Positions 1 to 10,723 of a stretch of DNA of 10,723 nucleotides are shown here, piece by piece. This DNA comes from an uncultured Odoribacter sp. Its GTDB lineage: Bacteria; Bacteroidota; Bacteroidia; Bacteroidales; Marinifilaceae. The stretch spans positions 1 through 10,723 of the forward strand of contig CAMWQQ010000039.1 in assembly GCA_947176455.1 (NCBI GenBank), written 5' to 3'. Position 1 is the first letter of the stretch. The number at the start of each line of letters is the position of its first letter. Position numbers and translations under genes: made by a program. Below the pieces are notes generated by a model. It saw nothing but the letters and a program-made list of their open reading frames with translations, had not been told where the DNA came from and searched no databases.

Positions 1-1384
1 ATAACATACCAGTGTAATAGTTGCCTTTCCCCTCGAATCGGGTTTCTTCAAAATTCTGAGTCTTACCTTCAAGTGCTCTTTCTTCGCCCGTCATAAAACG
101 GTTGTCCCAAATTTGGTCTTTCGATACCTTTACCACGCCTTTCCTCTTGTAGCTGGTACGTTGAGTTTCCGGGTCAAAGATTTTCTCCAATACCTCGAAT
201 TTGTCTCCCGCTTCCAGGCCTTCTTTCATGCCGATTTTAGCCGTAATGACCTGAGCTTTCTCGTCTCCGGAAACAATCATCGGGGTCTTTGTTTTGAATA
301 CCTCGTATTTCTTTTCCAGTTTGGCCAATGTCGCATCCGTGGCATTAATGGTGGCTATTCGAATCAGTTCACTTTCTGATTTATCAGTAAAAATACCAGC
401 CTTCACATTTGCCCAGGCCTTCTCTTCTCCGATGTATTTTAGGCTGAAAATATCGGATTGTTCATAGGCTTCCGGATTATCCCACAATTGGTTGTAGAAT
501 ATCCCTGCAATGGAGTCGTTCCAGTTCAACTGAAATAGGTAAGAGGTGCTTTGGACATAGTAACCGGCACCCAGCGAAGCCTTCACAGCCAAGGTTGCAG
601 CAGATGCTCCTATTGACGCATAGCCACCTCCCGCCAATTTGGCTGCCGCCTGAGCTGCCGCATCGATTTGGGCAACAAGTTCATCTTTGCTCAAATAGTG
701 AAAACGGGTTACCACCACGAAAGTGTTGTTAATCAATTCTTCTCCGGCATCTGCCAACAAAGCCATACCGCGAGCAGAGCTTTTTGCGTTTTCGACAGCA
801 ATGGCTGATGCGTCGTACATGCCACGTTCCTGTACAAGGTTCATGGAAAAACTACTATCCTGGGTTCTAAACCACCGGTCGAAGAGTTGTTTTGCCATAT
901 TTTGTTGTTGTAAAAACTTGTAGGCGGAAGCAGCGTATTCGGAATTGGTCGTTTCATTTACCAAACCGCCAGTAGCACTGCCCAAAGCAGCTTTTCCCAG
1001 ACCACCTACCATTTTGCCGAACCCGCCTTTCTTCTTTCCAGAATCCTTGCCCGATTCCTCTCCCGAATTTTTTTGCTTCGCCAAGCTTTCACCCAACACT
1101 CCTGCCTGTACAGCTTCTTTAAACGCTTTGTCATCTTCTGCCGTCAATTGCATCGTGTCCTTGCAGAACATCCGAACGGAGGCATTGTGGTCATTGTACT
1201 TGTCTGGCACTGGCAAACTCAAGAAAGCCTGCTTAATGACTTCCCTGTTCGGCATCTTGGATTCGTCAAGCATGATTAAACAAAGGGAACTCCGCCGATA
1301 ATTGCTTCCTTTGTCTTCGTTCTTTTCCGCAAAAGAGATTTGGGAAAACATGAAAGTTACGAGCAGTAATAATACTGTTTTCAT
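1..1384 (-). CDS. Secreted protein of unknown function, C-terminus beyond the window
   Basis: The minus strand is open without a stop from an ATG at 1384 to the window edge, giving 461 residues with the C-terminus missing. Residues 1-19 form a signal peptide (MKTVLLLLV... ending ISFA, cleavage before E20), so the protein should be exported; I see no lipobox cysteine. Residues 103-120 are a Lys/Ser/Gly/Glu linker, followed by a Gly-rich stretch (121-141) and a long Ala-rich helical region (about 148-275) with an Ala/Gly-rich segment at 241-274 that might contact a membrane. Residues 375-430 look like a small beta domain (a G-x-x-x-G-D-x-F pattern at about 389-396). AAGGAG lies about 15 nt before the ATG. 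I do not recognise the family. Predicted plus-strand ORFs inside this span are shadows. That the gene is real rests on the uninterrupted frame, the signal peptide and protein-like composition. Confidence 0.85.
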   Translation of the reverse strand, partial: MKTVLLLLVTFMFSQISFAEKNEDKGSNYRRSSLCLIMLDESKMPNREVIKQAFLSLPVPDKYNDHNASVRMFCKDTMQLTAEDDKAFKEAVQAGVLGESLAKQKNSGEESGKDSGKKKGGFGKMVGGLGKAALGSATGGLVNETTNSEYAASAYKFLQQQNMAKQLFDRWFRTQDSSFSMNLVQERGMYDASAIAVENAKSSARGMALLADAGEELINNTFVVVTRFHYLSKDELVAQIDAAAQAAAKLAGGGYASIGASAATLAVKASLGAGYYVQSTSYLFQLNWNDSIAGIFYNQLWDNPEAYEQSDIFSLKYIGEEKAWANVKAGIFTDKSESELIRIATINATDATLAKLEKKYEVFKTKTPMIVSGDEKAQVITAKIGMKEGLEAGDKFEVLEKIFDPETQRTSYKRKGVVKVSKDQIWDNRFMTGEERALEGKTQNFEETRFEGKGNYYTGML

Positions 1385-1432
1385 AAATGTGATTTTTTTC
1401 TCCTTTAATTCCCTGAAAGGTAAGTTTGTAAA

Positions 1433-1606
1433 ATGCAAAAAGCGTGGGAATTTTTCCGTTTTATCTACACTGAGGGTCTGGACTCCCTTACCAAAAACAA
1501 AACGATACCCCACGCCAGACCGGATATAGAAAAGTTCCTATATGGCAAGCATGAGCGTCTGTATCGCTTCCCCCTTTGGTATGAAATTGTCCAGATTTCA
1601 GTGTAG
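1433..1606 (+). CDS. Possible 57-residue small protein or gene remnant
   Basis: An ATG at 1433 opens a 57-codon frame ending in TAG at 1604-1606, divergent from the secreted-protein gene. AAAGG (1416-1420) lies about 12 nt before the start. The peptide begins MQKAWEFFRF and is rich in aromatic and charged residues (several W, F, Y, K, R), with no signal peptide or membrane segment. Its codons look like those of nearby Bacteroidales genes, unlike a random AT-rich frame. It could be a true small protein, the 5' remnant of a larger gene, or chance. No family recognised. Confidence 0.3.
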   Translation: MQKAWEFFRFIYTEGLDSLTKNKTIPHARPDIEKFLYGKHERLYRFPLWYEIVQISV

Positions 1607-1738
1607 GGATAAAGCAAAAAACGCTTTTATATAAAAATATGTCTGTCCATACGAATAAATTCGCACGGAACTTGGCAAATATAGATAAATTTCGTTTCTT
1701 ATACAAACGTCTCAATCGAAGCAATACAATCTAAATAT

Positions 1739-1759
1739 ATAGAAGTCACACACTTCTAT
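1739..1759 (+). terminator. AT-rich hairpin followed by a T run
   Basis: ATAGAAGT (1739-1746) and ACTTCTAT (1752-1759) form a perfect 8-bp stem with a 5-nt loop, followed by a T run at 1762-1766. It could terminate transcripts of the small ORF upstream. The stem is AT-rich, so termination would be weak. Confidence 0.35.
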
Positions 1760-1792
1760 CATTTTTCTAAAATTCAAACTCCTATTTTTCAT

Positions 1793-1821
1793 CAGATTTC
1801 CCGACTTCGGAGGGAAATCTG
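1793..1821. repeat. Perfect 10-bp inverted repeat
   Basis: CAGATTTCCC (1793-1802) and GGGAAATCTG (1812-1821) pair perfectly around a 9-nt loop that contains CTTCGG. No T run follows on the plus strand, so it is more likely a structured RNA or DNA site than an intrinsic terminator. Confidence 0.6.
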
Positions 1822-1841
1822 GGTCTCTGCAAGGGCAAGGC

Positions 1842-1881
1842 GTTTTCAGAGTAACTCAAAACCATTTGAGTAACTGAAAAC
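1842..1881. repeat. Overlapping direct and inverted repeats
   Basis: GAGTAACTCAAAAC (1849-1862) is repeated as GAGTAACTGAAAAC (1868-1881) with 13 of 14 matches. The same stretch also holds an inverted pair, GTTTTCAG (1842-1849) and CTGAAAAC (1874-1881). Nested direct and inverted units of this kind are typical of protein-binding sites such as relaxase or partition-protein sites; that role is inference. Confidence 0.5.
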
Positions 1882-1890
1882 ATACCTTGC

Positions 1891-1930
1891 TATTAGCAAA
1901 TGCTAATAAAAATCCGTCAAAAGACGGATT
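1891..1930. repeat. Two adjacent perfect 8-bp hairpins
   Basis: TATTAGCA (1891-1898) pairs with TGCTAATA (1901-1908) around a 2-nt spacer, so it acts more as a dyad site than a stable hairpin. Two bases further on, AATCCGTC (1911-1918) pairs with GACGGATT (1923-1930) around an AAAA loop. The second has A-rich flanks on both sides (T-rich on the minus strand) and could act as a weak terminator. Confidence 0.5.
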
Positions 1931-2126
1931 AAAAGCCAACAGTACGCCAGAAACAAAAAACACCTTGGACAGCCCTGTCGCTTGGGCGCAAAATTAGGTG
2001 ACTTGTCTATGCGGAAGCCGACTTTTAGCTGTGCCAACCGCTACCAGCCTGTGCCAGATGCTGCCAGTTAAAGAAAAATATGATGTAAGCAGATATGGTT
2101 AGACCCTAATTTGTAAATATATGGTC

Positions 2127-2249
2127 GGTTGATTTACAAGCTCATCAAATGATTAATTTGAGGGTTCATTGGTTAATTGATTTACCGACTTACTTACCGA
2201 TTTATTGATACACTAACTTATAAGTCTGTTGATTTATGGAATAATCAAC
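2127..2249. repeat. TTGATTTA-type repeats, iteron-like
   Basis: Variants of (G/A)TTGATTTA recur at 2128-2136 (GTTGATTTA), 2176-2184 (ATTGATTTA) and 2228-2236 (GTTGATTTA), with a related CGATTTATTGATA at 2198-2210. GTTGATT (2228-2234) also pairs with AATCAAC (2243-2249) to give a 7-bp stem, and GGTTGATT at 2127 is inverted relative to AATCAACC at 2243-2250. Spacing is irregular. Possible binding sites for a partition or replication protein, or simply AT-rich repetition. Confidence 0.35.
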
Positions 2250-2321
2250 CAATTATATCATTATATGGCTATATAATTAAAAGAAAAGTGCTTTTTAAGA
2301 TGCGAAGGTGGAAATTGTTGT

Positions 2322-2361
2322 AAAAGCCGGAAATAATCCTCATGGGTTATTCTGGCTTTTT
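2322..2361. terminator. Bidirectional terminator-like hairpin
   Basis: AAAAGCC (2322-2328) pairs with GGCTTTT (2354-2360), and the inner arms (GGAAATAATCC against GGGTTATTC) extend the stem with small bulges. T runs lie after the stem on both strands. On the minus strand it sits about 80 bases beyond the stop of the AbiEii gene and could end that transcript. Confidence 0.5.
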
Positions 2362-2383
2362 CAATGATTTCGTGGGAGGACGG

Positions 2384-2421
2384 AAAGTTACGGAGCCCAA
2401 CAGCCGGCTCAAGCTAACTTT
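2384..2421. repeat. Compound hairpin just past the toxin gene
   Basis: AAAGTTA (2384-2390) pairs with TAACTTT (2415-2421) and, inside an asymmetric internal loop, GAGCC (2393-2397) pairs with GGCTC (2406-2410). It begins about 19 bases beyond the AbiEii stop on the minus strand and lacks a T run, so it may protect the mRNA 3' end or mark the edge of the inserted AbiE cassette. Confidence 0.4.
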
Positions 2422-2439
2422 TCGGACAGGAGGAATCCA

Positions 2440-3243
2440 TCAATCTCTCCTCCCTGGCATTCTATCAATTAGTTTCTCATATACAAACTGATAGGCAACT
2501 TGTGGATTAAATTCAATCTCTGGTCTTAGTAGCGGTTTTACATCCGTCAAGAACTCCTCGTCCTGCATCTTTTCCTCTATGTTCTGTAGATATTCCTTAT
2601 ACGAAGGTACATTTTGTACCACAAATTCCATATACTTGCGATAGCACTCCAATAATTGCTCCACATTACACTCGCGGATTGTCAAGCCTTTATACATATC
2701 GAAAAGATCCCGTCCCTTTTTCCTTTGGTATAATGCTCTAAGTTTTGTCCCCATCAGTTCCTCGAAGCGATACGTGGTCAACTCCGCCTCTCCCGTAAAC
2801 CAACTGTTTTCCACTCGAAAAGGTATTTTCTCGAATCCCAATACATTAAAATGCTCGTGACAGTTGATCTCTATTTTCAGACGAATTTGTTCTACGGGAG
2901 GTATTTCCGAATCAAAACGAAAGAACATCTTGTTGCTATATTTTTTCTGAGCAGTACTTCGATTCGGAAGCCAGTCCAACACCTCGCCCAATCTAAATAG
3001 CACCTTTTTTATCGGTCCTGGATGAATCTGTACCAAATCTATGTCTTCACTATATCGGGGTTGAGGTCGCAAATACAATTTATGCAACGCAGTTCCACCC
3101 CGAAAAGCCAATTGGCTTGCCAGAAACTCATCGCTGAATATGCATACCAATACGCGACAGATAATCAAGTCCTGTTCTATCATAGCATCCGTATTCCAGG
3201 GTACTTGTTCATGCCATTCCTGTATGGAAAACTGCGGTATCAT
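2440..3243 (-). CDS. abiEii: AbiEii-type nucleotidyltransferase toxin of a type IV toxin-antitoxin pair
   Basis: A 267-residue protein with the motifs of the AbiEii nucleotidyltransferase family (the MenT-like superfamily). Motif I is R48-G-G-T-A-L-H-K55; motif II is the metal-binding D67-I-D69 in YSEDIDL; a third acidic residue is likely E125 in LKIEIN; motif IV is the K167-L-R-A-L segment followed by K175-K-G-R-D179, matching the family's TKLRAL...R.K.RD pattern. Characterised relatives transfer nucleotides to cellular targets (GTP-linked for AbiEii, tRNA ends for MenT) and halt growth, which aborts phage infection. Length is typical of the shorter family members. The start ATG overlaps the antitoxin stop by 4 bases (ATGA), so the two are translationally coupled and co-transcribed. 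All catalytic positions look intact. The cytoplasmic toxin role is known for the family and inferred here. Confidence 0.92.
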   Translation of the reverse strand: MIPQFSIQEWHEQVPWNTDAMIEQDLIICRVLVCIFSDEFLASQLAFRGGTALHKLYLRPQPRYSEDIDLVQIHPGPIKKVLFRLGEVLDWLPNRSTAQKKYSNKMFFRFDSEIPPVEQIRLKIEINCHEHFNVLGFEKIPFRVENSWFTGEAELTTYRFEELMGTKLRALYQRKKGRDLFDMYKGLTIRECNVEQLLECYRKYMEFVVQNVPSYKEYLQNIEEKMQDEEFLTDVKPLLRPEIEFNPQVAYQFVYEKLIDRMPGRRD

Positions 3244-4058
3244 ATTTCGTCTATTTCAAATTTATAATTCTCTATGATTTTCCATCGATTGGTTGCCTGC
3301 ATATCTTCTGGTACGGCAACCGATTGTTTTAATGCGACTTTACGCATAGTTCTTCCCGTTTGTTTTGCCAATAGGTAAAGTGCATCCGCCTGTTCCAGTT
3401 CTTCTATCTGTTCAAGCAGATAGCCCAATCGTTGAATCGTTGCAATGCTGAAATATCCAAGCAAGGATAGTTTTGTGTCATCCCAATGAGTCGATTCACA
3501 AAGTTCAATCAACACTTCAGCTACACGTCCCAAGCCACCTATCTTCTTTTCCTCCACTACTATGTCCAAAGCCGTCAGTTCCGCATCGGACACATTCATA
3601 TAACCCATCTGCGTCTTTACCTTCCGAACAAACTGCATAGGCAACTGCTGTTTTAGAACGAACTCAAGTCTCGTTCCATTCTTCACGCCCGAACGAATAG
3701 GTCCCCCATTGACTGTTGCCTGAAATACCATTGCTTTCTGATGAGAAGCCCCATTCAAAGCAGCTGCCGATAATAACGAAACATAATACTCCCGATTTAA
3801 AAACTTCATCAATCTATCTATATAGAATGAAGGAGGCACAATCCCCTTGAGTTTATATTCTGTCGGAATTATGACATAAAAATTCTGCCACGGCGACATA
3901 ATTACTCCTCTGTCCGACAAGCGCATCAAACTATTTTGCAATGACTGATTCGATATAGATAAATGCAACGACTGTATATCTTCCTTGGTGAAGATATATC
4001 GACCTCTTAACATCTGACCTGTCACCCACTCTTGTAAAGTAATATCACTCATTGCCAC
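3240..4058 (-). CDS. abiEi: AbiEi-type antitoxin and autorepressor
   Basis: A 272-residue protein if started at the GTG at 4058; an ATG at 4052 gives 270 residues and is the more likely start. No clear Shine-Dalgarno sequence precedes either. Residues about 10-65 read as a winged helix-turn-helix (FTKEDIQ..., then a recognition helix near SLQNSLMRLSDRG and a wing ending NFYVIIP). Residues about 70-270 match the AbiEi C-terminal antitoxin domain, with the typical YYVSLLSAAALNGASHQ segment (91-107) followed by a F-Q-A-T-V strand. In studied AbiE systems this protein represses its own operon by binding inverted repeats at the promoter and counteracts the toxin without forming a stable complex with it. 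It is the first gene of the operon, directly upstream of the toxin, which is the usual order. Confidence 0.9.
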   Translation of the reverse strand: MAMSDITLQEWVTGQMLRGRYIFTKEDIQSLHLSISNQSLQNSLMRLSDRGVIMSPWQNFYVIIPTEYKLKGIVPPSFYIDRLMKFLNREYYVSLLSAAALNGASHQKAMVFQATVNGGPIRSGVKNGTRLEFVLKQQLPMQFVRKVKTQMGYMNVSDAELTALDIVVEEKKIGGLGRVAEVLIELCESTHWDDTKLSLLGYFSIATIQRLGYLLEQIEELEQADALYLLAKQTGRTMRKVALKQSVAVPEDMQATNRWKIIENYKFEIDEI

Positions 4059-4716: not shown

Positions 4717-4724
4717 TACTTTTG
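4717..4724 (+). promoter_or_regulatory. -7 promoter box of the DAC-like operon
   Basis: TACTTTTG is a perfect TAnnTTTG box ending 47 bases before the ATG at 4772. No good TTG/TTTG is seen about 20 bases upstream, so the -33 contact is weak or an activator is needed. The expected leader is about 40 nt, AT-rich and without a Shine-Dalgarno sequence, as is common in this phylum. Confidence 0.55.
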
Positions 4725-4771: not shown

Positions 4772-5809
4772 ATGGAGAAAGAGCAAAAAAAGTCATCGAT
4801 GAGAGCAAGTACCTTATCTGATATAGGCTCTTTTCTTTTTGATGAAGGATTTAATACTTGCCCTATTACCAAGGCGGGAATATTAGATTTGGTTAATCTT
4901 ATTTCCGATTATTATGAGGAAGGAGTTCATTTATACCCTGAAGTGGTTATAACAAATGATTTTAATATTTTTAGAACTATACCCTATCGACGTATTCTTA
5001 TCAAAGAAGCAACATTAGATATTGGAGGTTTTAAGAATGCAATAAAACTTTGTGCTCCATTGGCAACGAATAGTTGGGTTATTTTCATTGAAGTAAAGGA
5101 TAATAAAATTGGATTTGGCTTAATCTCTACTGAAATGACAGAGACTAGCTTGTCTTTATATAAACAAGCTATTGAAAATAATGGAAATGAGGATCATGCA
5201 ACTCTTGCTTATGTTCGTAATTTGGGGCAAAAAGTAGTTGAATTAGTTGGATTAAAAAGTCGCCTCGTGATTTCATTAACTCTTGATGATGAAAAAAACA
5301 TACTAAATAATGAAATATCAAAACTGGCTCAAATTATCTCTAATGGGTGCTCAGATGAGTATAAAGCTAAAACAGAGGCTTTTTTTGAGAAAATTTTGAA
5401 TGAAGCTATAAAAACAGGCCATGGCAATCTAGTGGGCATAGTAGATGATAATGAGGATACTATATCAAAATTAAAAGAATCATTAAACGATGGTATATAT
5501 CTCAGAGAACCTATTGATATTGGAAACTATATAAAAATAGCAGAAGAGGAAAAAACAAATGAAGCGTCAGTAGCATTGAAAGCGTTTTCTTCAATATTAA
5601 TATCAATGCTGAATCATGATGGCATTACTATTATTTCAAACAAAGCGAGATTATTAGGATATCATTTGTTTGTGAGAAATAGCATAGAGGAACAAGAATT
5701 AGTTGGAGGTGCTAGAACAAGAGCTTTTGAAGCAATGAAAAAATTAGATTTAAATGCTTGTTTTTACAGATCTCAAGATGGAAATATAAAATATTATAAC
5801 CATGAATAA
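4772..5809 (+). CDS. Diadenylate-cyclase-like (DisA_N/DAC) protein with N-terminal sensor-like domain
   Basis: A 345-residue soluble protein without signal or membrane segments. Residues about 205-343 follow the order of DAC (DisA_N) motifs: AIKTGHGNLVGIVDD (212-226) in the place of the GALIV strand; an acid-helix segment to I250; NHDGITII (281-288) in the place of the catalytic DGA motif; GGARTRAFEA (312-321) in the place of GTRHRAA; and RSQDGNIKYY (333-342) in the place of SEETGxIS. Residues about 30-120 form a separate alpha/beta domain (EEGVHLYPEVVITND; LCAPLATNSWVIFIE; KIGFGLIS) that resembles the sensor modules found N-terminal to DAC-like domains. Active DACs make c-di-AMP from ATP. 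Here T and H of the GTRHR motif are replaced by A and T, so the protein may be a variant cyclase or a non-catalytic nucleotide sensor. The gene overlaps the next by 8 bases and is visibly AT-richer than the flanking genes, suggesting recent transfer. Confidence 0.72.
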   Translation: MEKEQKKSSMRASTLSDIGSFLFDEGFNTCPITKAGILDLVNLISDYYEEGVHLYPEVVITNDFNIFRTIPYRRILIKEATLDIGGFKNAIKLCAPLATNSWVIFIEVKDNKIGFGLISTEMTETSLSLYKQAIENNGNEDHATLAYVRNLGQKVVELVGLKSRLVISLTLDDEKNILNNEISKLAQIISNGCSDEYKAKTEAFFEKILNEAIKTGHGNLVGIVDDNEDTISKLKESLNDGIYLREPIDIGNYIKIAEEEKTNEASVALKAFSSILISMLNHDGITIISNKARLLGYHLFVRNSIEEQELVGGARTRAFEAMKKLDLNACFYRSQDGNIKYYNHE

Positions 5810-7127
5810 CGATATACAAATTTGGAGTGGCCCTGACGGTATTACAATACCAGCAAATACGAGAGAACCTAAAGATATTGTTAAATATGCCAATACGGAA
5901 ATCCTAACACAAAAACAACAAGAGCAAATTATTGCAGCATTTCAAATTGACGCATATGATATGGCTGCCGAATATGCTTGGAAAAGAGCTATGATGAAGT
6001 TGAAAGAAACTTTAGCTACTTTAGGAATGAAATTTATAGGAGAAATGTTGGGGCGTGAAGATATTAATGAATTCACTCCTATTGATGTAGCCCTAACTGA
6101 CTATACAACTATCCAATTAGCAGAGCAATTAGGAGTTATCGGGAATACTGCGGCATTAAAACTTAGACAATCCCAAGAGTTAGTTTCTCATTTTTTTTCT
6201 GGCAAAGCAGATGAAGAGTTTGATTACTCTAGTGCAGTTATGGTTGTAAAGAGTAGTATTCAATATATTCTGGGGGAGCAAGAAATCTCTATTGCGATTG
6301 AATTCACAAATTTAAGAAATAGGTTACTAAGTGAAAGTCTTAAGTCAGATGACCTGCAAGTAAATCAATTAATAAGTTCTCCTTTGTTTTATTTAAGAAC
6401 AGTATTAACGATATTGCTTTCTTCGATAAGGAAAGACAAAGGAGCAATACTTGAACATGCTCTTGCAAATATTAATCTTCTTCTTCCTGAAATGTGGAGA
6501 AATTTAGGAGAAAACGATAAATGGAATATAGGAACGGCTTATAGAGATGTTGTTGCCGAAGGCAATAGTACTGCAGCCAATGGATTAAAAAAAGCCTTGT
6601 TAAAAGTTGAAGGATTTGATTTTGTTCCAGAGAATTTGCGATCAACTACCTTTAAAAACGCCGCAAGAATTGTTATTGAAACTCATTTTGCATTCAATAA
6701 TTTCTATAATGAACCTCCTGTGGTGAGAGCATTAGCTACTTTAGGCTCAACTATTCCTGCTCCAGCTTTGATTGATTGCATACAGGCTTATCTACTAGTT
6801 TATTTAGGAAATTATTATGGCGTTTCAAATGAAGCTAATCCGATTGCTTATGAAGAGCTATCAAAAATAACCAAAGATCGTTGGCATTACTATTTTGAAA
6901 AAGTGATAGCAAAAGATGAAACAATCCTATTAAACATAAGGTATGAAGGACAAATTAATCGCTTTTCAGAATTATTGAGAAACAATAAATATGATGATAT
7001 AGCTGGATTACCAAGAGATGTACAAAATCTATATAATGCGATTGTAAATAAAAAATATGCGATAGTTAAAAGTTTATCAGAAAAATTATACCAAAGTATC
7101 AAAAAAAGAGACTGTCCGAAATATTAA
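5802..7127 (+). CDS. Unknown 441-residue helical partner of the DAC-like protein
   Basis: The ATG at 5802 lies inside the end of the DAC-like gene (8-base overlap), so the two are almost certainly one operon and translated together. The product lacks a signal peptide. Residues 1-25 hold a short strand-like start (IQIWSGPDGITIP); the rest reads as successive amphipathic helices, with conserved-looking blocks at about 52-85 (YDMAAEYAWKRAM...KFIGEMLGRED), 98-122 (ALTDYTTIQLAEQLGVIG) and 305-340 (PPVVRALATLGS...YLLVYLGNYYG). The most hydrophobic stretches (about 189-208 and 322-336) are amphipathic and do not look like true membrane spans. No nuclease, protease, NTPase, TIR or HNH motif is visible. 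I do not recognise the family. By position it could be the effector or target of nucleotide signalling, or a scaffold or regulator of the upstream protein. Confidence 0.85.
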   Translation: MNNDIQIWSGPDGITIPANTREPKDIVKYANTEILTQKQQEQIIAAFQIDAYDMAAEYAWKRAMMKLKETLATLGMKFIGEMLGREDINEFTPIDVALTDYTTIQLAEQLGVIGNTAALKLRQSQELVSHFFSGKADEEFDYSSAVMVVKSSIQYILGEQEISIAIEFTNLRNRLLSESLKSDDLQVNQLISSPLFYLRTVLTILLSSIRKDKGAILEHALANINLLLPEMWRNLGENDKWNIGTAYRDVVAEGNSTAANGLKKALLKVEGFDFVPENLRSTTFKNAARIVIETHFAFNNFYNEPPVVRALATLGSTIPAPALIDCIQAYLLVYLGNYYGVSNEANPIAYEELSKITKDRWHYYFEKVIAKDETILLNIRYEGQINRFSELLRNNKYDDIAGLPRDVQNLYNAIVNKKYAIVKSLSEKLYQSIKKRDCPKY

Positions 7128-7325: not shown

Positions 7326-7565
7326 GTGGGCGACCAGGAGGCTTTTAATGGCTTTCTGCCCGCTTTCTTGTTTCAGACGGGCATACCGACAATAGAAGAA
7401 TGCAAGAAGGAGATGAGGCGTATCATTCTGTTTTATAATACAGAACGCCCCCATATGAGCATTGGAAACAAAACGCCTGAAGTTGCGCATGCGGAGGATG
7501 GAGCACAGAAAAGATGCTGGCGCAACCCGTGGAACAAACCCGTCTTGTCGGTTGCTCCGGGATAA
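7326..7565 (+). pseudogene. C-terminal remnant of an IS3-family transposase (OrfB)
   Basis: The last 55 or so residues of this frame (from GIPTIEECKKEMRR) match the end of the DDE integrase core of IS3-type OrfB: helix, then ILFYNTERPHMSIGNKTP, the YN..RPH.S...TP signature. The catalytic DDE residues and the whole N-terminal part are missing. The first 20 codons (from GTG at 7326) look unrelated and probably lie outside the relic, so the breakpoint is near 7370-7390. The frame ends naturally at TAA 7563-7565. The fragment cannot be active. Confidence 0.75.
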
Positions 7566-8145: not shown

Positions 8146-9003
8146 ATGAAAAGGATCATCTTGATGGCAACAATCGTCATTAATTCTATGATTGGTATGG
8201 CACAGGTAAATTGGCAGAGCAATCGGGTCGGGATGGCATTTGCACGCCAGGGCGGTGAAACTCCGGAAGGAACTTTTCGATTTACGACCGGTGGTTATGA
8301 AGTGTTTACCATTCAAAGTTCGGACAAATCTTTTCAACCGGCATCATTGTATTATGGCGAGAACAATGCCGACCGGGCAAAGGTTGACGCAATGGCGCCC
8401 GACGGGGAAGTGCCGACATCCATGAACTGTTTTGTCGTCAAGACACCGGAGGGTTTCATCATGTTCGATACCGGTTTGCCGGCATCAAAGGGTGGCAAGA
8501 CCGTGGAACGGCTGGCATCATTGCAAAGCTCGCCAAAAGCGATAACGGCGATTTATTTGACCCACGGTCATTTTGACCACATTGGCGGACTGATAGACGA
8601 CAAGGGGAATGCGGTGTATGCCAACGCAAACGTCTATGTTCCTGCCGCAGAGCTTGCTTTTATCAGAGAAAGCATGGGCGAGGCGGCAACTCAAATCGAG
8701 AAGGCTTATAAAAACAGACTCGTCGTTTTTGAACCGGGAAATATGCTACCCGGAAATGTCCTGCCTATCTCGGCAAAAGGGCACACGCCGGGACATACCG
8801 CCTATCGCCTGGGGCAGTTGCTATTTGTAGGAGACCTGATGCACGGATACGAAATTCAGCTTCTTGACCCTACCATTTGCGCCAGTTATGATGCCGACCG
8901 TTCGGAAGCGATTGACACCCGCAACCGTCTGCTCAATTACGCCGTAGCCAATTCTCTGACAGTGCTCTGCGCCCATGTTCCCAACAATGGGGTGATATTT
9001 TAA
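8146..9003 (+). CDS. Exported metallo-beta-lactamase-fold hydrolase
   Basis: A 285-residue protein with a signal peptide (residues 1-20, MKRIILMATI... ending GMAQ), so it probably acts in the periplasm. The MBL-fold metal-binding set is complete: T139-H-G-H-F-D-H145 (HxHxDH), H217 in GHTPGHT, D230 in FVGDLMHG, and a late H277 in CAHVP. The early DTG (108-110) after a beta strand is also typical. The arrangement is like that of the quorum-quenching lactonase/AttM and PNGM-type branch of the superfamily; the substrate cannot be read from sequence, and a lactonase, beta-lactamase or other esterase role is equally possible. The start is supported by the signal peptide; no Shine-Dalgarno sequence is visible. 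It ends 15 bases before the convergent 86-residue gene, with no clear terminator between them. Confidence 0.88.
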   Translation: MKRIILMATIVINSMIGMAQVNWQSNRVGMAFARQGGETPEGTFRFTTGGYEVFTIQSSDKSFQPASLYYGENNADRAKVDAMAPDGEVPTSMNCFVVKTPEGFIMFDTGLPASKGGKTVERLASLQSSPKAITAIYLTHGHFDHIGGLIDDKGNAVYANANVYVPAAELAFIRESMGEAATQIEKAYKNRLVVFEPGNMLPGNVLPISAKGHTPGHTAYRLGQLLFVGDLMHGYEIQLLDPTICASYDADRSEAIDTRNRLLNYAVANSLTVLCAHVPNNGVIF

Positions 9004-9018
9004 CAAATGGTTTCCGGG

Positions 9019-9279
9019 CTATTGGTTGTGTTCGACGAGCCACTCCCGCAACGTTCCGTTTTCTATCGCAGGCAACATCTCCTGTACCTCCTCCCAATCA
9101 AAATGGGTGATGTACAGAAGGCGGTCTTGTTCATCGACACCTGCCACATATAGACCGTCCTCGCTACCCTCACCGCCGATGTAGGCGTGAGGGGCGAGGG
9201 TTTTCATGGCTTCCAGTGCGACGGGGATGCACCGCTGGCGCATCTCCTCGAAATTTTCAGGAGTGAGTGTTATGCACAT
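9019..9279 (-). CDS. Small acidic protein of unknown function, last gene of the TlpA-like operon
   Basis: An 86-residue acidic protein with no signal peptide, so probably cytoplasmic in contrast to the exported proteins encoded before it. It reads as an N-terminal helix (TPENFEEMRQRC...ALEAMKTL), two or three strands around HAYIGGEGSEDGLYVAGVD and LLYITHFDW, and a C-terminal helix pair (WEEVQEMLPAIENG; LREWLVEHN). The ATG at 9279 overlaps the end of the upstream TlpA-like gene by 10 bases, which favours translational coupling and supports this start in the absence of a Shine-Dalgarno sequence. Family not recognised. Confidence 0.7.
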   Translation of the reverse strand: MCITLTPENFEEMRQRCIPVALEAMKTLAPHAYIGGEGSEDGLYVAGVDEQDRLLYITHFDWEEVQEMLPAIENGTLREWLVEHNQ

Positions 9280-9827
9280 TTGCCGTATTTTTTAAGAATT
9301 TGCTTGATGACATCGGCGGTCAAGGCACGCCTTGAACTTCCGTCGCCGTGCGGATTGCCTTGCCAACGCACAATGCCCTTCGGGTCAATGATGATGACAC
9401 TCGGGATTGCCTCTAATTGGAAAGCGCGAAACAGTTCGAGGTGCGGATCTGTCGCTTGGTAAAACTGGATAGGGACATACTCTTCGTTCATCTGCTGCTT
9501 GGCTCTCTGAATCTGTTTTAAGCCCTTTTCCACCGCCTTCTCGTTCTGCGTTGCCACAGCGATAAATACCGCCTTTTTACCGAATTTCCGGGCAAATTCA
9601 TTCATCTTCGGCGTGAATCTCACGCACGGACCGCAATACGTTGCCCAAAAGTCCAGCACGATGAATTTACCCGCCGTGTCCGGCTTCTCCGTCATCCAAC
9701 TACCAAAGTTCAATTTCGGAGCCTGCTTGTTCAATAACGGGCGACTCCAGTCAAATGCACTGTTCTCCTGCGCAAAAGTTGCCACGGTGAGCAACAGGGC
9801 GCACAAACATACGATACTCTTTCTCAT
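9270..9827 (-). CDS. TlpA-like periplasmic thiol-disulfide oxidoreductase with CGPC
   Basis: A 185-residue protein with a signal peptide (1-20, ending TFAQ) and one thioredoxin-fold domain. The active site is W61-A-T-Y-C65-G-P-C68 after the strand IVLDF, and the cis-proline is P142 in EAIPSVII, followed by DPKGIVRW. This is the full TlpA/ResA-like set, so it should act in the periplasm as a reductant or oxidant of protein thiols. AAAGGAAG lies just before the ATG at 9827. It is third in a minus-strand operon after two related proteins that have lost the cysteines, and is likely the only redox-active member of the set. The partner or substrate is unknown. Confidence 0.9.
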   Translation of the reverse strand: MRKSIVCLCALLLTVATFAQENSAFDWSRPLLNKQAPKLNFGSWMTEKPDTAGKFIVLDFWATYCGPCVRFTPKMNEFARKFGKKAVFIAVATQNEKAVEKGLKQIQRAKQQMNEEYVPIQFYQATDPHLELFRAFQLEAIPSVIIIDPKGIVRWQGNPHGDGSSRRALTADVIKQILKKYGKCA

Positions 9828-9836
9828 CTTCTTCCT

Positions 9837-10349
9837 TTATTTTGTCAATAACTCTGCTAATCTCTCTTCTGTCAGGTTGAATACATTACGCTCTCCTTGT
9901 CCCTCCTTCAGTACATTGCCTTCCCAAATGACAATCCCTTCCGGATTTACCAGATAGGCGACGGGGTACGCCTGGATATCAAACAACTCTTCTTCCACCT
10001 TGTAGTCGATGATGCCGTTGTAATATTCAATCACGGGGTCGACTATCAGGCTTACGATATAAGGGTCTCCGGAGGTTAGTCCGACGACACACAATTTGTC
10101 CTTGAATTTCTCCGCCAGATGATTCTGGTGGGGCACTGTCCGACGAACCACCGGATAGGCGAGGATATTCCAAAAATCCACCAACACGTATTTTCCTTTC
10201 GTATCAGGTTTCTCCCCCAGCCATTCCTGCACCTCAAAGGTAGGAAATTTTTGTCCAAGAAGTGAACGCTTGAGTACTTCTTCTTTCGCCTGCGCACGGC
10301 TGCCGAGGGCATAACAAGCCAGCACGACCGCTAAAATCAATCTTTTCAT
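9837..10349 (-). CDS. TlpA/thioredoxin-like exported protein without CxxC
   Basis: A 170-residue protein with a signal peptide (1-20, ending SRAQ). It is clearly related to its downstream neighbour: both have an EKPDTxGK stretch leading into a V-D-F-W strand and an (N/D)P(E/K)GIV strand near the end. The active-site position reads W60-N-I-L-A-Y-P-V67, so both cysteines are replaced (by A64 and V67), while the cis-proline survives at P129 in AYPV. It keeps the fold but cannot do disulfide exchange at the usual site; a binding, chaperone-like or structural role is inferred. The start overlaps the upstream stop as ATGA, and the gap to the next gene is 9 bases. Confidence 0.85.
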   Translation of the reverse strand: MKRLILAVVLACYALGSRAQAKEEVLKRSLLGQKFPTFEVQEWLGEKPDTKGKYVLVDFWNILAYPVVRRTVPHQNHLAEKFKDKLCVVGLTSGDPYIVSLIVDPVIEYYNGIIDYKVEEELFDIQAYPVAYLVNPEGIVIWEGNVLKEGQGERNVFNLTEERLAELLTK

Positions 10350-10723
10350 TTATTGGGTAGATATTTTTGGATAAACTTCTCTAACAACTCTTCTGTCACC
10401 GCTTCGCCCTTCAGCAGGGGAAAACATTCGTGGATGACCTTCCCTTTCGGGTCAAGCAAGTAGCAATAGCAGAATGTCTTCACGCCGAACTGCTTGACCG
10501 TTTCCGGTGCCGAGGCATACGGATACTGCGGAAGCGGTTCGATGTCTTTGATAAAATCCGCATCATCCGGTGAAAGTCCGATAATCCGCAATCTGTCGCC
10601 GTATTGTTTGGCAAACTTGTTGAACCGGGGGATGTCCACGTAAGCGGGCATCGGTGCACCCGTCGACCAGAAGTGCAACAGCGTCAGCCGTCCTTTGCTC
10701 TCTTCCGGAGCCCGGTTGACCCA
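10346..10723 (-). CDS. Third TlpA/thioredoxin-like protein, N-terminus beyond the window, no CxxC
   Basis: The frame is open from the right edge to TGA at 10346-10348, giving 125 residues of the C-terminal part; the true start and any signal peptide lie outside. A thioredoxin-like strand L-T-L-L-H-F-W is followed by S-T-G-A-P-M-P in place of the WxxxCxxC loop, so both cysteines are missing. Where the neighbours have the cis-proline (AIPS, AYPV) this protein has F-C-Y-C-Y, putting a CxC pair in that position, followed by the usual LLDPKGKV. The ATGA overlap with the next gene shows one operon. A new redox or metal site at CxC is possible but unproven. Confidence 0.8.
   Translation of the reverse strand, partial: WVNRAPEESKGRLTLLHFWSTGAPMPAYVDIPRFNKFAKQYGDRLRIIGLSPDDADFIKDIEPLPQYPYASAPETVKQFGVKTFCYCYLLDPKGKVIHECFPLLKGEAVTEELLEKFIQKYLPNK

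Follow-up and report, generated by a model that had tools for sequence, protein, structure and literature searches.

In this paper we examine two overlapping genes, here called A and B, on a contig of 10,723 nucleotides (nt) from an uncultured Odoribacter sp. (NCBI GenBank assembly GCA_947176455.1, contig CAMWQQ010000039.1). The stretch of DNA analysed, referred to below as the window, is the entire contig, and the completeness of the source genome is 67.7%. An original prediction, made from the sequence alone, had described the pair as a candidate operon for nucleotide signalling or defence, encoding a diadenylate cyclase (DAC)-like protein and an unrecognised protein. Its observation is confirmed here and its interpretation is supported. 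Both frames are open at the positions it gave, the genes overlap by 8 nt as claimed, and the operon is AT-richer than its surroundings, with a GC content of 32.1% as against 40.6% for the window, 41.2% for the neighbouring AbiE genes, and 42.3% and 50.3% for the left and right parts.

4772..5809, plus strand: gene A, 345-residue DAC-like protein
5802..5809, plus strand: overlap of the A stop and the B start, 8 nt, within CCATGAATAACG
5802..7127, plus strand: gene B, 441-residue helical protein, open frame

Linkage and distribution of A and B

Scanning genome contigs with B as the query identified 49 loci, and the whole genomes of all 49 were then searched. B turned up in every one of the 49, and A in 43, of which G407 and G442 have a partial copy; each of the 43 has a single A, on the same contig and strand as B and directly upstream of it. 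Of the six genomes that lack A, two have a fusion of B to a caspase (L044, L045), one has such a fusion interrupted by stop codons (L041), and in the other three the locus is a fragment or lies at a contig end (L042, L047, L050). In a set of 43 full-length open reading frame (ORF) pairs, drawn from the genome loci, from viral contigs and from the window, the genes overlap by 1-14 nt in 36 and are separated by 1-4 nt in the other 7, the B start being taken as the B-frame start codon closest to the A stop. Pairwise identities of A and of B are correlated at 0.94 over 35 loci, as expected for genes that are inherited together.

Because the 49 genomes had been reached through B, searches through A were added, and all three intact A genes that these found have B as a neighbour. 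Among 72,556 plasmid records A matched two, both with B adjacent and both first reached through B. Across four groups of 395, 247, 274 and 250 genomes, and beyond the genomes at their centres, intact A occurred only in G796, with B, and a degraded fragment in G048, with no B within a flank of about 1.5 kb. A was thus rejected as an orphan gene, that fragment being the only A in these searches with no B in its flank. In the phylum of the window A is present in 2 of 395 genomes (the source genome and one fragment), as against a canonical DAC in all 25 other relatives of the source genome, which rules out A as a core enzyme of cyclic di-AMP (c-di-AMP) synthesis; the source genome itself, at its 67.7% completeness, gave no match to the DAC family PF02457. 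A canonical DAC was sought in 28 of the 49 genomes, two of which carry caspase-B, and among the remaining 26 A-B genomes a match was present in 13 and absent in 13.

In an all-against-all comparison of the 229 ORFs that lie within 3 kb of 43 pairs, the most widely shared group reached 4 of the 43 loci, two of them near-copies, and A and B alone thus form the conserved unit. Carriers are labelled as Bacteroidota, Bacillota, Pseudomonadota, Myxococcota, Gemmatimonadota, Actinomycetota, Nitrospirota and Thermodesulfobacteriota, and the pair also lies on two plasmids and on IMG/VR contigs. Homologues of both genes occur together across phyla, and the pairing is therefore beyond chance; neither a predicted structure lacking the DAC fold nor homologues standing apart among core metabolic genes was encountered.

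Two variations on the arrangement were seen. In L014 (Prevotellaceae) only the DAC part of A (positions 177-343) lies upstream of B, in an open frame of 190 codons (9501-10004). In three Vibrio loci B is followed directly by a 204-residue protein (11323-11937 in both L032 and L035, 3225-3839 in L066), possibly a third component; the one copy scanned with PADLOC, that of L032, gave no match.

Gene A

The features of A, with motifs numbered in the window, are as follows.

Residues about 1-180: N-terminal alpha/beta domain
5339..5806, plus strand: C-terminal DAC-fold domain, about residues 190-345, from predicted structure and motifs
5420-5425, plus strand: HG motif (H217-G218)
5618-5626, plus strand: DGI motif, where DGA is expected
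5705-5722, plus strand: GGARTR motif, where G-x-RHR is expected
5771-5782, plus strand: SQDG motif

The DAC identity, previously proposed from motifs, is upheld by structure prediction, in which the DAC fold is present, and the model supports a reading of A as a divergent DAC-fold protein. Residues D283, G284, R315, S334, G337 and H217-G218 are invariant in all 35 diverse and all 80 close homologues. DGI replaces DGA in all 35 of the diverse set, in which the R-x-R site keeps its first arginine in 35 and its last in 32, with a middle histidine in one. A may synthesise c-di-AMP or another nucleotide. The Pfam scan of A returned no family above the cut-off, PF02457 included, and only 4 of the 35 homologues matched PF02457 weakly (best 0.0014). 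A sequence search of the PDB with A gave nothing significant (best 0.41).

The two-domain layout of A recalls that of DACNV-DAC proteins (PF21751 + PF02457), which have, like A, an N-terminal EEG motif and, in the DAC part, HG-like, D-G, G-x-R and SQDG motifs. In a single hhalign comparison DACNV-DAC aligned with a diverse set of A (A3) over A columns 33-351 with a probability of 86.6 and an E-value of 4.4e-6. With a narrower set (A1) the probability was 8.6 for DACNV and 1.7 for CdaA, the CdaA profile consisting of 21 ORFs that hold DGA and [RK]HR, and DACNV against CdaA itself scored 1.1. A and the DACNV-DAC proteins are nevertheless distinct, in that the DACNV consensus reads DGA where A has DGI, the DACNV model does not match A at an E-value of 1, and DACNV is absent from the 16 Pfam families matched by any of the 35 homologues. 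DACNV proteins occur in nearly all members of their order (55 of 61 genomes), in contrast to A, which is sporadic and linked to B; the two weak matches of A in the genome groups were DACNV proteins. The canonical DACs DisA and CdaA have DGA, RHR and SE-x-x-G where A has DGI, R-S/T/K-R and SQDG, and they are core genes whereas A is accessory. The names of the DACN domains reportedly come from 2015 work by Burroughs and colleagues, which may mention parts of the system described here.

Gene B and its relatives

Gene B comprises the following regions.

5892..6287, plus strand: HEPN-like N-terminal region, residues 31-162, without RN-x(4-5)-H and with invariant H130
6288..7124, plus strand: helical-repeat-like remainder
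6612-6644, plus strand: signature GFDFVPENLRS
6696-6716, plus strand: signature NNFYNEP

The AlphaFold2 model of B is nearly all helix (predicted local distance difference test score 83.9, predicted template modelling score 0.62), and we propose that B consists of a HEPN-derived domain without the RNase motif, followed by a helical solenoid. At the HEPN-motif site of its relatives RN-x(4-5)-H is found in none of 40 diverse B proteins, but is present in all six distant relatives sampled; elsewhere in the sequence the pattern occurs in 3 of 120 close B proteins and in 8 of 120 proteins of the caspase set. H130 is invariant in the 40, and E126 is retained in 36. Position 122 of the same helix is R in 19, K in 11, L in 6, M in 3 and S in 1, and the helix reads R-x4-H in eight proteins and R-x6-H in two. 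B, called unrecognised in the original prediction, matches PHROG 27609, a family of unknown function (4.2e-23). The HEPN-like region without its motif, and the caspase or metallophosphatase that can stand in the place of A, lay beyond what that prediction could have seen. Neither Foldseek against the PDB nor a search of viral structures gave a match to B at an E-value of 0.001, a PDB sequence search gave nothing significant (best 0.039), and annotated phages gave no match. A Pfam match to an RbmA-like family (0.0048) was below the cut-off and was discarded.

When the B part of a caspase fusion was used as the query, 317 matches resulted, of which 120 were listed. Among those listed, 87 contain a caspase domain (PF00656), 3 a metallophosphatase domain (PF00149) and 30 no Pfam domain, and the B signatures are kept as FD[YF]VPE in 104 and as NN[FY]Y-x-E in 102. 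Of the listed proteins of at least 660 residues, 81 of 90 retain both GHG and D[A/S]CH, and the other nine include the three metallophosphatase fusions. The fusions to caspase share the B domain with the A-B operon and carry a protease instead of the DAC-like A. In a B-domain tree of 46 rows, the three caspase-B rows group as a single clade (100/100) that falls within the A-linked group (85/87, a modest support), and six relatives with the HEPN motif, three of them on long branches, split off together (100/100). When the tree is rooted on that split it may be read as one replacement of A by a caspase.

The metallophosphatase fusions (P0319, P0324 and P0326) are a third type of partner for the B domain. 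The window B matched 63 plasmid records, two of them over at least 80%. Solo B-like proteins, which occur on plasmids and in genomes, are homologues of B (68-163 bits, the match starting at about profile position 35-50 and reaching at least 340) and differ from it in carrying RN-x(4-5)-H (6/6). Those on enterobacterial and lactococcal plasmids (L062, 6797-8206; L063, 6869-8182; L064, 5833-7194) are candidate single-gene HEPN defence proteins, and no match to the A profile lies beside these three loci, L059-L061 being outside that search. In L060 a distant B with the HEPN motif (736-3234) is directly followed by a Mrr_cat protein (5.5e-9).

Defence genes near the pair

Enrichment near known defence genes had been put forward as a check on the prediction, and A-B neighbourhoods are indeed richer in known defence families than controls. 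At 20 loci up to seven ORFs on each side of the pair (263 proteins) were scanned with PADLOC, together with 264 control proteins from 19-kb regions of the same contigs at least 27 kb from the pair. At an E-value of 1e-15 there were 241 family matches near A-B (60 + 181) and 34 in the control (21 + 13), these totals being counts of families, of which one gene can match many. Among the first 25 matches of each of the two lists near A-B are type I-F Cas proteins, the cyclase and phospholipase of cyclic oligonucleotide-based anti-phage signalling systems (CBASS), prokaryotic Argonaute (pAgo), type IIG and type IV restriction, IetA and PDC candidates. PDC-S05 makes up 17 of the 34 control matches, and among the remaining ones are mad2/mad3, DpdF, MzaA, reverse-transcriptase-associated and restriction families.

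Single PADLOC scans of ten neighbours of A-B matched six and did not match four. A SIR2-pAgo lies directly after B in L018 and L023, a pAgo just before A in L009, DSR2 in L036, and a CBASS cyclase with phospholipase beside the pair on an Agrobacterium plasmid (L065). Annotations place a BsuBI-type restriction system close to A-B on a Vibrio plasmid and Ppl next to a distant B on a plasmid of Klebsiella. The A and B of the window matched nothing in PADLOC.

Comparison with known systems

CBASS families match neighbours in some A-B loci, but CBASS has a CD-NTase, whereas PADLOC finds none in the A-B operon and A has a DAC fold. In the report on DefensePredictor, the system DS-2 combines a CBASS-like phospholipase and cGAS with a DAC, and mutating either of two DAC catalytic residues abolished defence (PMC13092281). 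DS-2 resembles A-B in having a DAC-type enzyme, in its case one needed for defence, and is set apart by its partners, phospholipase and cGAS instead of B. DisA genes linked to STING genes are mentioned in another paper (PMC10739871); there too a DAC-type enzyme stands beside an immune gene, but the partner is STING and not B. The claim that no system with this pair has been described holds provisionally, since the literature on the pair, or on combinations of DAC, caspase and HEPN, gave nothing closer than these two as far as those sources show, and its coverage was incomplete.

Proposed explanation and its rivals

We propose that A-B is a two-gene anti-phage module in which B is the sensor and adaptor and A is the partner enzyme that stops the cell, probably by abortive infection, and we give this reading a probability of about 0.5. 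B, with its HEPN-derived domain and helical solenoid, would perceive a cue linked to the phage and switch on its partner. Here that partner would be A, a divergent DAC-fold enzyme of the DACNV-DAC lineage, of which either the nucleotide product or the consumption of ATP may halt the cell. In related systems B is instead fused to a caspase protease or a metallophosphatase, which takes the slot of A. Because B is constant across changing partners and does not have the nuclease motif seen in its solo relatives, it is most simply read as the part that detects and passes on the cue, leaving the action to the partner. Computation establishes the fold of A, its pairing with B, the variety of partners, the missing HEPN motif and the defence genes nearby, and from these the catalysis, product, trigger, direction of signalling and protection are inferred. 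Half of the A-B genomes tested for a canonical DAC (13/26) gave no match, and hence the product is unlikely to depend on the host c-di-AMP network in all of them; action through host c-di-AMP receptors only is disfavoured on the same grounds.

The roles may instead be reversed, with A sensing infection through its DACNV-like N-terminus and making a cyclic nucleotide that B binds in order to kill or arrest the cell. Pfam names DACNV a "probable sensor domain", most of A can be aligned with DACNV-DAC, the lack of a conserved third gene would leave B as the obvious receptor, and the genomes without a canonical DAC make the host c-di-AMP network an unlikely target in all cases. B, however, has neither the HEPN motif in any of 40 proteins nor another recognised catalytic site, and it occurs without A, fused to a caspase or metallophosphatase, so that it need not be the receptor of a product of A. 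We regard this reversal as unlikely, with a chance worth keeping in view.

A toxin-antitoxin-like module that stabilises mobile elements, with defence as a side effect, would account for the overlapping genes, the presence on two plasmids and IMG/VR contigs and the AbiE pair that adjoins A-B in the window. Both proteins are large and well conserved, though, with no small labile antitoxin apparent, and the exchange of A for a caspase or metallophosphatase would fit defence effectors better, and we consider such a module improbable. Canonical DACs are core regulators, and A-B might likewise be a non-defence signalling pair, for example in stress or osmotic regulation through c-di-AMP, found in variable regions by chance. 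The canonical DAC encoded by 13 of the 26 A-B genomes and the near-universal DACNV proteins of one order agree with this, but the sporadic occurrence of A across the four genome groups, the defence-rich neighbourhoods and the replacement by a caspase are unlike core signalling, and we consider it improbable. That B works as a nuclease through an altered site around H130, and that A regulates it by making or removing a nucleotide, is a reading that draws on the conserved H130 and E126, the HEPN-like placement of the region and the few R-x4-H and R-x6-H helices, but is very improbable in view of the mixed position 122, which leaves no conserved arginine in the helix, and of the missing RN-x-H of the six relatives.

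Returning to B as sensor and A as effector, we suggest more tentatively, and with some doubt, that the pair belongs to a defence family that crosses phyla, in which a HEPN-derived sensor that has lost its nuclease is combined with an exchangeable enzyme, either a DAC-fold protein (CD-NTase-free), a caspase or a metallophosphatase, and in which the DAC-like enzyme may make a nucleotide other than c-di-AMP, given its DGI and R-x-R site. If so, the B domain would exemplify a nuclease domain turned regulator and would allow searches for a modular family that joins a single sensor to cyclase, protease or phosphatase outputs. DAC-fold enzymes would then constitute a separate class of defence enzymes, in addition to the CBASS-linked DAC reported in 2026 (PMC13092281), and might yield a new nucleotide product. 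The prediction can be tested by standard plaque assays and nucleotide profiling.

Surroundings of the operon

The features that flank A and B in the window are listed below.

2440..3243, minus strand: AbiEii toxin (Pfam and PADLOC)
3240..4058, minus strand: AbiEi antitoxin (Pfam and PADLOC)
4717..4724, plus strand: possible -7 promoter box TACTTTTG (TANNTTTG pattern), not significant alone
7326..7565, plus strand: probable IS3-like transposase relic, reading FYNTERPHMSIGNKTPEVA

The operon had been placed between an AbiE pair and an insertion sequence (IS) relic. The first is secure, the AbiEi-AbiEii pair adjoining A-B in divergent orientation with Pfam E-values of 3.6e-33 for AbiEii and 5.2e-19 for AbiEi, with which PADLOC agrees. 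The relic 3' of B is plausible; by its motif FYNTERPHMSIGNKTPEVA is probably the ending of an IS3-like transposase, and blastn against plasmids gave no match. The box said to be the operon's own promoter, presumably of the Bacteroidota-type -7 consensus, is present upstream of A, but the window holds 19 copies of the TANNTTTG pattern where 11.4 are expected, and 9 of 200 shuffles reach 19, and the box by itself is thus weak evidence of a promoter. Further downstream lie a protein of the metallo-beta-lactamase fold (8146-9003; PF00753, 7.2e-21) and three minus-strand ORFs (9270-10678) that we take to resemble TlpA/thioredoxin-type proteins.
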